Below are positions 30,016 to 34,189 of a stretch of DNA of 40,022 bases, piece after piece (position 1 is the first letter of the stretch; every line of letters starts with the position of its first letter). The position numbers were made by a program, and so were the translations under genes. The stretch is from contig JALSHU010000049.1 in the NCBI GenBank assembly GCA_026982075.1, forward strand, positions 1 through 40,022, written 5' to 3'. Source of the DNA: Sulfurovum sp. (lineage in GTDB: Bacteria; Campylobacterota; Campylobacteria; Campylobacterales; Sulfurovaceae). The notes beneath the pieces were generated by a model. It searched no databases. It was not told the origin of the DNA and saw nothing but the letters and a program-made list of their open reading frames with translations.

Positions 30016-31902
30016 TTATAATAAATATCTAAATGTCACGACAACCATAGCTTCTTTATTGATACTTTTAAGAATAACCTCTTTTAGGCGTATTTTTTCC
30101 TGCTTGCTTAATATGCCTGTACTTATAACCTCACAACGTATTTCATCTATTTTTGCACGATGAACAAGCTCTATATGTGTAAGTTTAACATCATGTGCTC
30201 CAACATTAAACGTTATATTTGAAAGCGTTTTTTGTATGCGTATATCTTCTTTCATTTTTAAAAATGAACTATAAAGAGGCATGGCAACGACTGCAACGAT
30301 TAACATCCAAATCAAAATACCTTTTTTTGCCAGATGCAATGGTGAATAGCCCATCATCGCAAAGGTAAATGCAGCTGCTAAGACAATGCCTACAAGATTT
30401 GTCATAAAAAGTAAAAAAGCTGTAGAAAACATACTCCAGTCAGCCCATCCCAGTCCTATCCCTGCTACTGCAATAGGAGGAACCAATGCAACCGCAATCG
30501 CAACTCCTGCCAAACTGCCTAGAATCTTTTCATTGGACTTTGCATATGCTGCAGCTGCCCCAGAAGCTATAGCAACAAATAAGTCTAGTATCGTGGGACT
30601 TAACCTGCTTGCCATTTCACTTGTGAGCTGCTCAATAGGAGTAAAAAGTGCTATAAGCGCAGCAGTCACCAGTACAAAAGCTACACCAGTAACAATCGTT
30701 TTTGCTCCATGTATCTCCAAAGCTGTATCTTGTCTCAATACTCCCATTGAGAGACTGACAATGGGCTGCATAAGTGGTGCCAAAAGCATCGCACCGATAA
30801 TGACTGAAGAAGAGTTAATAAAAAGTCCAAAAGTAGCTATCATCGCTGCAAGAATAAGTAAAACCATGAAATTTTGACTTAAACGGCTTTCTTCTCGTAA
30901 ATTGGTGAACAAAGATGTATATTGTTCTTGACTCGCATGAGAGAAGAAAGGAATCGCAGCACTAAGATATTGTGTACTCTCTTTATCAGAAGGAAGGTGG
31001 TCTATTTTTATACTGTCTTTACCGTTACTTTCAGAAACCTGTTTTTCCCAAAATGTTTCACCTACACTTAAAAGTAAAGCTTTTTCTTTTACCTCTAGTT
31101 CTACAGGAGTCTGTTGCTCAAGGGAAGAATCTACTAGCACACTCAATGCTTCTTTAGTTTCTATACGTATTTGTGCACTTCTTATGTACCCTACAGACAG
31201 GGGTAATGTCTTAGGACCTAAATGTGATACCAATGATTGAAACAGATATCCCATATATTGTACGATAGAGGTAGGAGAAAGGATGACCACAGAAAGTTTG
31301 CCGTCATTTGCAGAAATCTGTTTTGAGACAAGCCTTGCAGCAAAAGTAGCATTATTATACTCAATAGCGACCAACCCGACAGCTGAAAAGTGTATCTCAT
31401 TCTCTTTGGCATCTGTCACCTTTATCTGCGAATGTTTAAGCTCTTTGACTTTTTTCATGGTATGCACAAACATTTTGATGCGCTCAAAGTATGTTTTTCC
31501 ATTTAATACTGATTCAAACTGGTCTAGTGGTGGTACCTTCCCAACAACTACTTCTTGTAATACAATCGTACCATTGCTATACAATAAATCAAGTGCTTTT
31601 TCTGAAGGTTTCACGGCTAGAGCAATCTGCTCTTTAAGCTTCGAGGGTAATGCAAATGTACGTATAAGTTCTTTTTGTTTTTCTGTTGGCACAATACCTA
31701 TACTTAGTACATTTTGATGTGCAATTGCAAACAAAAGTTTTATCTCATCTAAACAACCTGTTACAATTAAATGTGTTGCTTGGCTTACATCAAAAGTATC
31801 TAAAGCATCAAAAGAAAGATATTGAATTTCATATGCTTTCAAATGTACTTTACATGTCTCAATAAATTCAGTCTCTGTGGCTGTATAAATATAATAAATC
31901 AT
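30016..31902 (-). CDS. DUF389 (TIGR00341) membrane protein with degenerate lipid-kinase-like N-terminal half
   Basis: A 628-residue protein of unknown function. The C-terminal half (about residues 340-545) is the DUF389 membrane domain with about six helices and motifs SSVIIGAMLLAPLMQPI and LVPPIAVAGIGL. A small soluble tail follows. Residues about 45-283 look like a YegS/diacylglycerol-kinase fold without its catalytic motifs: the GGDGT site reads TGCLDE (48-53) and the PLGTGND site reads VPTEKQK (71-77). The C-terminal beta-domain pattern remains (NDGKLSVVILSPTSI, then VDSS...PVELEVKEKAL). It is the last gene of the Bat-type operon, 18 bases after BatD, with no clear Shine-Dalgarno. A transporter, channel or lipid sensor are all guesses. 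Confidence 0.8.
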   Translation of the reverse strand: MIYYIYTATETEFIETCKVHLKAYEIQYLSFDALDTFDVSQATHLIVTGCLDEIKLLFAIAHQNVLSIGIVPTEKQKELIRTFALPSKLKEQIALAVKPSEKALDLLYSNGTIVLQEVVVGKVPPLDQFESVLNGKTYFERIKMFVHTMKKVKELKHSQIKVTDAKENEIHFSAVGLVAIEYNNATFAARLVSKQISANDGKLSVVILSPTSIVQYMGYLFQSLVSHLGPKTLPLSVGYIRSAQIRIETKEALSVLVDSSLEQQTPVELEVKEKALLLSVGETFWEKQVSESNGKDSIKIDHLPSDKESTQYLSAAIPFFSHASQEQYTSLFTNLREESRLSQNFMVLLILAAMIATFGLFINSSSVIIGAMLLAPLMQPIVSLSMGVLRQDTALEIHGAKTIVTGVAFVLVTAALIALFTPIEQLTSEMASRLSPTILDLFVAIASGAAAAYAKSNEKILGSLAGVAIAVALVPPIAVAGIGLGWADWSMFSTAFLLFMTNLVGIVLAAAFTFAMMGYSPLHLAKKGILIWMLIVAVVAMPLYSSFLKMKEDIRIQKTLSNITFNVGAHDVKLTHIELVHRAKIDEIRCEVISTGILSKQEKIRLKEVILKSINKEAMVVVTFRYLL

Positions 31903-31920: not shown

Positions 31921-33417
31921 TTAACTAAAACGTTCCACCATCTTTTTCAGTTCTTTTTTATCTATCACTACTGATGTATCACCATTTTTTTTAGCATAAA
32001 GTTTACGTACCATCGCCTCTACTTCACTGTCTTCACTCATATGGGCGTACAGTATCTTAAGTGCTTCTGACTCATTATATGAACTTCTTTTTCTAGCTTT
32101 TAAACCTGGTACTAACTGGACAAAATACATAGAAAGTGCTCCAGAAATAAAGGCGATAAGTAACATCCACCAGCCCATAGTTTCATACCCTTCTTGTTTT
32201 TTTGTTTCAATGTTTTGTATGGGCTCATCTTTAGATATATTTGTCTGTACCAGTGGTTTTTGCTCGGTATGACTTCCTATAGCTACTCCATGTTCATCTT
32301 GTTTTACAGTGATATCATAGGAAGGGATAGTAAGTTGTTGCAATGATTTATCTTTCAATGTTAACATAGAAAAACTTTGTGCCGGTATCACAAAATCTCT
32401 ATCTGAAATAAATACAAAACTTTTACTGTAAATGCTATACAATGCTCCATCGACAACTTTTGTATCAATCGTTGCTTCATCACTGTATATGGTGACACCG
32501 TCAATTTCATATTTAGGAAAATCAAATCCTTCTAGATTACCTTTCCCTTCTATTTTCACAATAAGATTCACTGGTTTGTTTGCTTTGACTTCTTGTCTGT
32601 CTATCCTTGCATCTACACGAAAGTCGCCTAATAAATCACTCTCTTGTATTTGAGGAATAACCTCAATATCTAGACTGTTTGAAAATGTCTGCATCCATTT
32701 GGTACCAAAGCTAAATCCAAAAACATCCTGTCTCCTTTTATCAGGGAGACCTATTTTGGCTTGTGCAGGGGAAATAGTAAAGTTACCTTCTTTTGTCGCA
32801 GTAAGAATATATCTTACTTCTTGTACTCGATATTGACCTTTTTTATATGCCTGTTGTTCTACTGTATCAGTCACAACAAAGTCTGATAACCTTGGTGGTG
32901 TATATTGTACATCTTGTGACAATCTTACTGTGTCATTTAAAGAAAAATAAACAGTCACTAGAAAAGATTCACCTACCATGACTTTGGTTTTATTTGCTTT
33001 CATTTGTAGTGAAAACAAATTTGTATTTTGTGTACTTGATGCTTGAGAAGTCACTACTTTGATATCTATAGGATTTGTATGATACTCACTTCCATCTATA
33101 TTTACTGTATATCCAGGTATCGTCATATTTTGTTCGGGTACAAACTGTATGGCATGTGTCAGTATCTTTTCACTCTCTAAACTACCATTAACAATACGCA
33201 TATGCCTACTGGTACTCTTGGATATCCCTATCACAGGAGCATCTGCTACCTTAAGAATCTTGGGAATGACGGCATTGTCACCTGTTGCTTTAATACGTAA
33301 AGTAACTGGATTTCCTTTAAATACTTCTACCGTATCTACAGTTGCTTTGACCCCTGCACCATATACAAGTCCGAAACTAAATACACATAATACATATAGT
33401 TTACCAAGGTTTTGCAT
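31921..33417 (-). CDS. batD: BatD family protein
   Basis: A 498-residue protein with a signal peptide (KLYVLCVFSFGLVYGAG) and beta-rich periplasmic Ig-like domains (about 25-395) of the BatD/oxygen-tolerance type. VGESFLVTVYFSLNDTVRL and VKANKPVNLIVKIEGKGNLEGF are typical. A C-terminal transmembrane helix (about 412-432, GWWMLLIAFISGALSMYFV) leads to a cytoplasmic helical tail. I chose the ATG at 33417 (MQNLGKLY) because AAAGGAG precedes it; a longer frame adds a charged decapeptide. It overlaps the TPR gene by 17 bases. Bat genes are linked to aerotolerance in Bacteroides and to stress in spirochaetes, but their biochemistry is open. Confidence 0.85.
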   Translation of the reverse strand: MQNLGKLYVLCVFSFGLVYGAGVKATVDTVEVFKGNPVTLRIKATGDNAVIPKILKVADAPVIGISKSTSRHMRIVNGSLESEKILTHAIQFVPEQNMTIPGYTVNIDGSEYHTNPIDIKVVTSQASSTQNTNLFSLQMKANKTKVMVGESFLVTVYFSLNDTVRLSQDVQYTPPRLSDFVVTDTVEQQAYKKGQYRVQEVRYILTATKEGNFTISPAQAKIGLPDKRRQDVFGFSFGTKWMQTFSNSLDIEVIPQIQESDLLGDFRVDARIDRQEVKANKPVNLIVKIEGKGNLEGFDFPKYEIDGVTIYSDEATIDTKVVDGALYSIYSKSFVFISDRDFVIPAQSFSMLTLKDKSLQQLTIPSYDITVKQDEHGVAIGSHTEQKPLVQTNISKDEPIQNIETKKQEGYETMGWWMLLIAFISGALSMYFVQLVPGLKARKRSSYNESEALKILYAHMSEDSEVEAMVRKLYAKKNGDTSVVIDKKELKKMVERFS

Positions 33418-34189
33418 CTTCACTCCTTTTACCTTTTTTACCTTCACCCATCTGATACATCATTGTAGGTGTTTTACCTTTTTGCATCTTTTTCATAAGA
33501 CGTTTTAACTCTTGTTCTTTCAATTTTTCTTCTTTGGTTTTTTGCTTATTTGCTTTTGAAGGAGAACCTTCTTTCTCACCTTTTTTCTCTTTGTCTTTTT
33601 GTTCTTTTGAAGAATCAGACTTCTTTTTATCACCTTCTTTTTTCTTATTTTCTTCGTTTTTCTTATTTTTGTCTTTCTTTTTCTGTTCATCTTGTTTCTG
33701 TTTTTGCTTTTCTTTGTTTTTTTCGTCTTTTTTATCTTCTTTTTTCTTCTCTTGTTCTTTTTTATTTTTATCTTTCTTTTTCTGTTCATCTTGTTTCTGT
33801 TTTTGCTTTTTTGCCAATTCTAAATTATACTTTGTGTCTTCGTCTTCTTTTATTTGTAAAGCTTTTTCATAACTTTCTATAGCCTTATCAAACTCTTTTT
33901 TTTGAAAATAACTGTTACCTATGTTATGCAATTTTTGTGCTTCATCTACCCCTTCAGCATTTTTATATTTTTCTATCGCTTCATCATATTGTTTGTTTTT
34001 ATATAAGGCATTGCCCAAGTTATACTCTTTTTGAGGAACATTCTTTTCCAAACCTTTTAACAAAGCTGCACTTTTTCCATACTCTTTGGCTTCATAGGCT
34101 TTATAGGCTGCTTCAATGGTTTTAAAATCTGTAATGCCCGCATTTACAGTCGTCAAAAATATACCTAATATCATGAAAAGGTGTATCAT
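33401..34189 (-). CDS. batC: TPR protein with long Lys/Glu-rich tail (BatC-like)
   Basis: A 262-residue protein: a signal peptide (MIHLFMILGIFLTTVNA), about three TPR motifs (residues 25-125, for example NLGNALYKNKQYDEAIEKY and NIGNSYFQKKEFDKAIESYEKAL), then about 110 residues made almost only of Lys, Glu, Gln, Asp and Asn. The tail contains a 33-residue in-frame duplication (see repeat). The end (KTPTMMYQMGEGKKGKRSEDAKPW) is less biased. In Bat operons the TPR protein sits between the VWA proteins and BatD, where it is thought to scaffold them. It overlaps the VWA gene by four bases. Confidence 0.82.
   Translation of the reverse strand: MIHLFMILGIFLTTVNAGITDFKTIEAAYKAYEAKEYGKSAALLKGLEKNVPQKEYNLGNALYKNKQYDEAIEKYKNAEGVDEAQKLHNIGNSYFQKKEFDKAIESYEKALQIKEDEDTKYNLELAKKQKQKQDEQKKKDKNKKEQEKKKEDKKDEKNKEKQKQKQDEQKKKDKNKKNEENKKKEGDKKKSDSSKEQKDKEKKGEKEGSPSKANKQKTKEEKLKEQELKRLMKKMQKGKTPTMMYQMGEGKKGKRSEDAKPW
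33663..33711 (-). repeat. 49-bp direct repeat, copy 1, in batC tail
   Basis: This stretch is identical to 33762-33810 except for one base (g versus a). The two copies are 99 bases apart from start to start, which is exactly 33 codons, so the duplication keeps the frame and repeats KQKQKQDEQKKKDKNKK in the protein. A unit gain or loss would alter only the charged tail length. Confidence 0.85.
33762..33810 (-). repeat. 49-bp direct repeat, copy 2, in batC tail
   Basis: The second copy of the 99-base-period repeat in the Lys/Glu-rich tail of the TPR protein, differing from copy 1 by one base. Confidence 0.85.

Follow-up and report, generated by a model that had tools for sequence, protein, structure and literature searches.

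A kinase-like domain without ATP loops is fused to a DUF389 membrane protein in Sulfurovum and other Campylobacterota

In the genome of a Sulfurovum species, one open reading frame (ORF) joins two known families, YegS/DgkB-type lipid kinases and DUF389 membrane proteins, in an arrangement that we have not found described and that is present in many Campylobacterota genomes, those of marine sulfur cyclers and their relatives. The ORF has an ATG start and an uninterrupted frame, occurs in one copy in its own genome and lies within the 40,022-nucleotide stretch of DNA analyzed here (the window); its relatives at 65-95% identity stem, nearly without exception, from Sulfurovum-named MAGs. An initial annotation had read it as a pseudo-kinase joined to DUF389, and this reading is backed by profile searches, alignment, fold search and the family-wide loss of the GGDG motif. 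Its authors also knew of no description of the architecture; we likewise found none in the open literature. Many Campylobacterota have this arrangement, however, so it is not unique to the source genome. The features are:

30016..31902, minus strand: whole ORF, pseudo-lipid-kinase and DUF389 membrane protein, 628 aa
31591..31902, minus strand: N-lobe (alpha/beta) of the kinase-like domain, residues 1-104, without the ATP-loop residues (profile, model and alignment)
31744..31758, minus strand: GCLDE, residues 49-53, opposite GGDGT of lipid kinases (alignment)
31669..31689, minus strand: PTEKQKE, residues 72-78, opposite PLGTxND (alignment)
31054..31590, minus strand: C-lobe, residues 105-283, YegS_C-like beta sandwich, better conserved than the N-lobe
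31123..31131, minus strand: DSS, residues 258-260, opposite the DGE acid motif (alignment)
30253..30873, minus strand: seven hydrophobic segments, residues 344-550, with the Pfam DUF389 core at 372-508
30019..30222, minus strand: C-terminal soluble beta-beta-beta-alpha-beta domain, residues 561-628, predicted to be periplasmic (model pLDDT 69-84; topology inferred)
31921..33447, minus strand: BatD gene, 18 nt upstream of the pseudo-kinase/DUF389 ORF and on the same strand

The homology of residues 1-283 to the YegS/DgkB-type lipid-kinase fold is solid. Lipid-kinase models match the N-terminal domain at 1e-7 to 1e-10 over residues 62-300, with scores of 18-40 bits that stay below the YegS/DAGK family cut-offs of 118-387, and the single sequence matches PDB diacylglycerol kinases at 1e-5. 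With a profile built from 33 diverse family members, 4wer was matched at 6.9e-14 over residues 32-283, 4wrr, 3s40 and 3t5p at about 6e-13 (all four top PDB matches at or below 6.7e-13) and DgkB and YegS at about 0.002-0.003, while the lipid-kinase model NF002033 was matched by 24 of the 33 family N-terminal domains. Regarding the fold, 3t5p, 3s40, DgkB, 4wer and YegS occupied Foldseek ranks 1-12 for the AlphaFold model of this domain, and mainly the same lipid kinases came in front for the full-length model. The two AlphaFold models have a pLDDT of 50-52 because they were made from just nine and eight sequences, taken from the window and related loci but not from the genome survey; with TM-scores of about 0.3, the Foldseek agreement is therefore support and not proof, and the models are too poor for an interface or a pocket to be read from them. 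ZnT/CDF matches of the full-length model were set aside in view of its low confidence and an rmsd of 12-22 Å. Both models contain beta1-alpha1 of the domain, which hence starts at residue 1; the DAGK/YegS order of motifs first noticed in residues 45-283 stands, but not residue 45 as the beginning of the domain. Compared with the soluble YegS/DgkB/BmrU lipid kinases (TIGR00147, PF00781 and PF19279; 4wer, 3s40, 2qv7 and 2bon), the domain shares the two-lobe fold over its full length, the motif order and the DGKL strand, but it lacks the ATP loops, has lost the DGE acid in nearly all members, is fused to a membrane protein and scores far under the family cut-offs.

The alignment with 4wer pairs GCLDE with GGDGT, PTEKQKE with PLGTVND and DSSL with the DGDE strand. 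This agrees with the initial observation that the phosphate-loop glycines are gone (TGCLDE for GGDGT and VPTEKQK for PLGTGND) and that the pattern of the C-terminal beta-domain persists (DGKL kept, VDSS on the DGE strand). In lipid kinases of bacteria and humans, the GGDG motif is cited as binding ATP (PMC10331486). Among 63 aligned long homologues, none carries GGDG[T/S]; 60 also lack DGE at the catalytic-acid site, and the three that keep it (L030, L051 and L074) do so although their ATP loop is lost. Conservation is higher in the C-lobe (1.83 bits), where DGKL (200-203), P210, S212, P234, G238 and D258 are retained, than in the N-lobe (1.43 bits), which is the least conserved part. As a positive control, the same genome encodes a separate 226-aa DAGK-like protein in which GGDGS is intact (L076), and the motif is therefore not simply unrecognizable in the source organism. 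This protein (L076:1435-2115; G000:C4), whose LDGD is also intact, is possibly the active lipid kinase of the organism; its gene adjoins two genes for pqiA-type (paraquat-inducible)-looking membrane proteins. Authentic YegS-type kinases are rare in Campylobacterota, being over the cut-off in 1 of 101 genomes.

Pseudo-enzymes sometimes prove active, and the N-terminal domain might accordingly be a highly diverged kinase or transferase with other residues in place of GGDGT. The retained fold, DGE in three homologues and the frequent occurrence of D105 in a conserved D-x-L motif would fit such an activity; judged from the alignments, however, it appears very unlikely, as the family shows no conserved replacement glycine-rich loop at the GGDGT site, the N-lobe is its least conserved part and both ATP-contacting loops are missing in every member inspected. 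A functionless leftover in decay might explain why the N-terminal domain evolves faster than the membrane part, but this is hardly tenable and already contradicted by a dN/dS of this domain well below 1 in all 16 close pairs (0.067-0.290; the pairs partly overlap, some having a common member, and several have a high dS) and by full-length open frames in 36 of the 46 matching genomes, across families. The domain is thus under purifying selection and, by sequence, is to be seen as a maintained pseudo-enzyme and not as a decaying gene.

The membrane module spans about residues 340-550. DUF389 (PF04087) was matched over residues 372-508 at 9.3e-40 (136.3 bits for a cut-off of 23.9) and TIGR00341 over residues 334-540 (108.1 bits for a cut-off of 94.75), covering model positions 105-310; the model's own N-terminal segment (positions 1-104) has no match in the ORF. 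Instead of the six helices initially counted, hydropathy gives seven hydrophobic segments downstream of the N-terminal domain. Loops 2-3, 4-5 and 6-7 are rich in lysine and arginine (1.9-2.6 per sequence), loops 1-2 and 5-6 contain few of these residues and loop 3-4 is intermediate; since this charge pattern fits an N-in orientation, the N-terminal domain is predicted to be cytoplasmic and the C-terminal domain periplasmic. An internal 3+3 helix repeat in DUF389 was considered and is unsupported (hhalign of the halves scored 9.4, whereas permutations averaged 11.3 and reached at most 17.6).

The membrane module and the C-terminal domain are common to TIGR00341/DUF389 proteins, and it is at the N-terminus that these proteins differ: typical short TIGR00341 members of the phylum (325-350 aa) have another N-terminus of ~100 aa where the ORF protein has its 283-aa pseudo-kinase. 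We found matches in 46 of 397 sampled Campylobacterota genomes which, sorted by open-frame length, comprise the long form (595-678 aa) in 36, a short DUF389 form (329-467 aa) in 9 and one weak, stop-ridden match. The home family has matches in 76 of 150 genomes. Three short forms (L020-L022) match TIGR00341 from the model start, including the segment that finds no match in the ORF, and a different segment of ~100 aa therefore precedes their membrane part. Since short TIGR00341 proteins of the phylum carry such a segment in its stead, the kinase-like domain seems to be an input module that can be exchanged among DUF389 proteins. In plasmid-borne DUF389 proteins of other phyla, the match is confined to the membrane part and the portion downstream, and the three examined carry other N-termini; a search for the N-terminal domain on plasmids gave no match, and a search for DUF389 in viral contigs gave none that was confirmed.

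In the window, the pseudo-kinase/DUF389 gene is convergent with tyrA and, in this lineage, probably shares one operon with the BatD gene. Further on, a BatC-like TPR protein (33401-34189) has a long low-complexity K/E/Q tail with repeats including KQKQDEQKKKDKNKK, present twice. The neighborhoods of 52 long-form loci were inspected, 28 from the same family and 24 from outside it; batD lies directly upstream in 19 of the former, a sample chosen by similarity and hence biased towards the Bat arrangement, and in none of the 24 latter, so that no conserved bat adjacency across families was found. The link to the Bat operon is lineage-specific and, because the gene order is conserved in one family alone, it is weak evidence for the envelope-stress or transport role at which, in the initial annotation, it was taken to hint. 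In five loci (L003, L004, L088, L131 and L132), a tandem pair of batD-like genes precedes the pseudo-kinase/DUF389 gene, where the window has one.

These data also bear on the main rival explanation, a scaffold: without any ligand, the N-terminal domain would hold the protein together, dimerize or recruit a partner such as the Bat proteins. The family-wide loss of the catalytic motifs and the BatD neighbor in the home family would suit this role. Human acylglycerol kinase (AGK) has a kinase-independent role in TIM22 although, unlike the N-terminal domain, it keeps its active site, is a separate chain and is no close relative. In that translocase, a solved case (7cgp, which is among the Foldseek matches of the full-length model), a lipid-kinase fold is likewise part of a membrane complex. 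A Bat partner cannot, however, be general given the 0 of 24 loci outside the family, and the conserved residues cluster in loops and turns of the C-lobe (D200-K202, P210, S212, P234 and G238), which we interpret as going beyond plain upkeep of the fold. We consider a scaffold a doubtful but serious possibility.

Outside the home family, most long-form loci have unrelated neighbors, and the evidence from neighbors is mixed and post hoc. An MscS gene is immediately adjacent and co-directional in four loci from three genera (L095, L097, L108 and L109), for about 0.1 expected among 33 non-Bat loci, a rough and post hoc figure based on ~4 MscS genes and an assumed ~2300 genes per genome. DUF389 genes on plasmids adjoin an MscS gene in Nostoc (L082) and, in another case, a SulP gene; on plasmids of two alphaproteobacteria (L145 and L151), SLC13 permease, DUF389 and Na+/H+ antiporter genes are clustered in differing orders, possibly as a conserved ion-transport cassette. 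We counted these MscS, SLC13, Na+/H+ antiporter and SulP neighbors as support for a transport role. Alternatively, the membrane part could serve lipid or envelope homeostasis (lipid flipping, for instance), and the kinase-like domain would present the lipid. The lipid-kinase descent of the domain and the BatD gene 18 nt away on the same strand are in line with this, but at other loci DUF389 genes more often have ion channels and antiporters beside them, and we regard this alternative as quite unlikely.

Our preferred reading, which we propose tentatively and with a probability of about 0.42, is that of a non-catalytic domain which, on binding a lipid, a metabolite or some other ligand through its C-lobe, controls a DUF389 protein acting as a transporter or channel. 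The N-terminal domain descends from a YegS/DgkB-type lipid kinase, as its sequence shows, with the catalytic motifs lost and the fold and C-lobe kept; it is predicted to be cytoplasmic, with seven hydrophobic helices and then a small periplasmic domain downstream of it. Because the fusion is genuine and maintained by selection, this domain probably has a sensory or regulatory role and not an enzymatic one, the three homologues that keep DGE counting against such a role. Its C-lobe may bind a lipid of the membrane or a different small ligand; of lipid and nucleotide, the two ligands named in the initial annotation, ATP appears the less likely, because conservation is lowest in the nucleotide half, whose loop is lost. 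The domain would thereby control the DUF389 membrane part, whose most likely cargo is an ion or small solute. A more specific version, in which the lipid-kinase fold senses membrane lipids or the tension state and gates a DUF389 ion or solute transporter, cooperating in some members of the phylum with MscS-type channels, is unlikely; if true, it would give DUF389 its first role and provide a bacterial transporter gated by a pseudo-kinase.

In the open literature, we found no function for DUF389 and no ligand, transport substrate or phenotype for any DUF389 protein. Both bacteria and archaea have DUF389 proteins. With its conservation, the pseudo-lipid-kinase input domain offers a concrete and testable handle on their function. 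Moreover, this domain would add a bacterial example of a dead lipid kinase retained as a regulatory domain.
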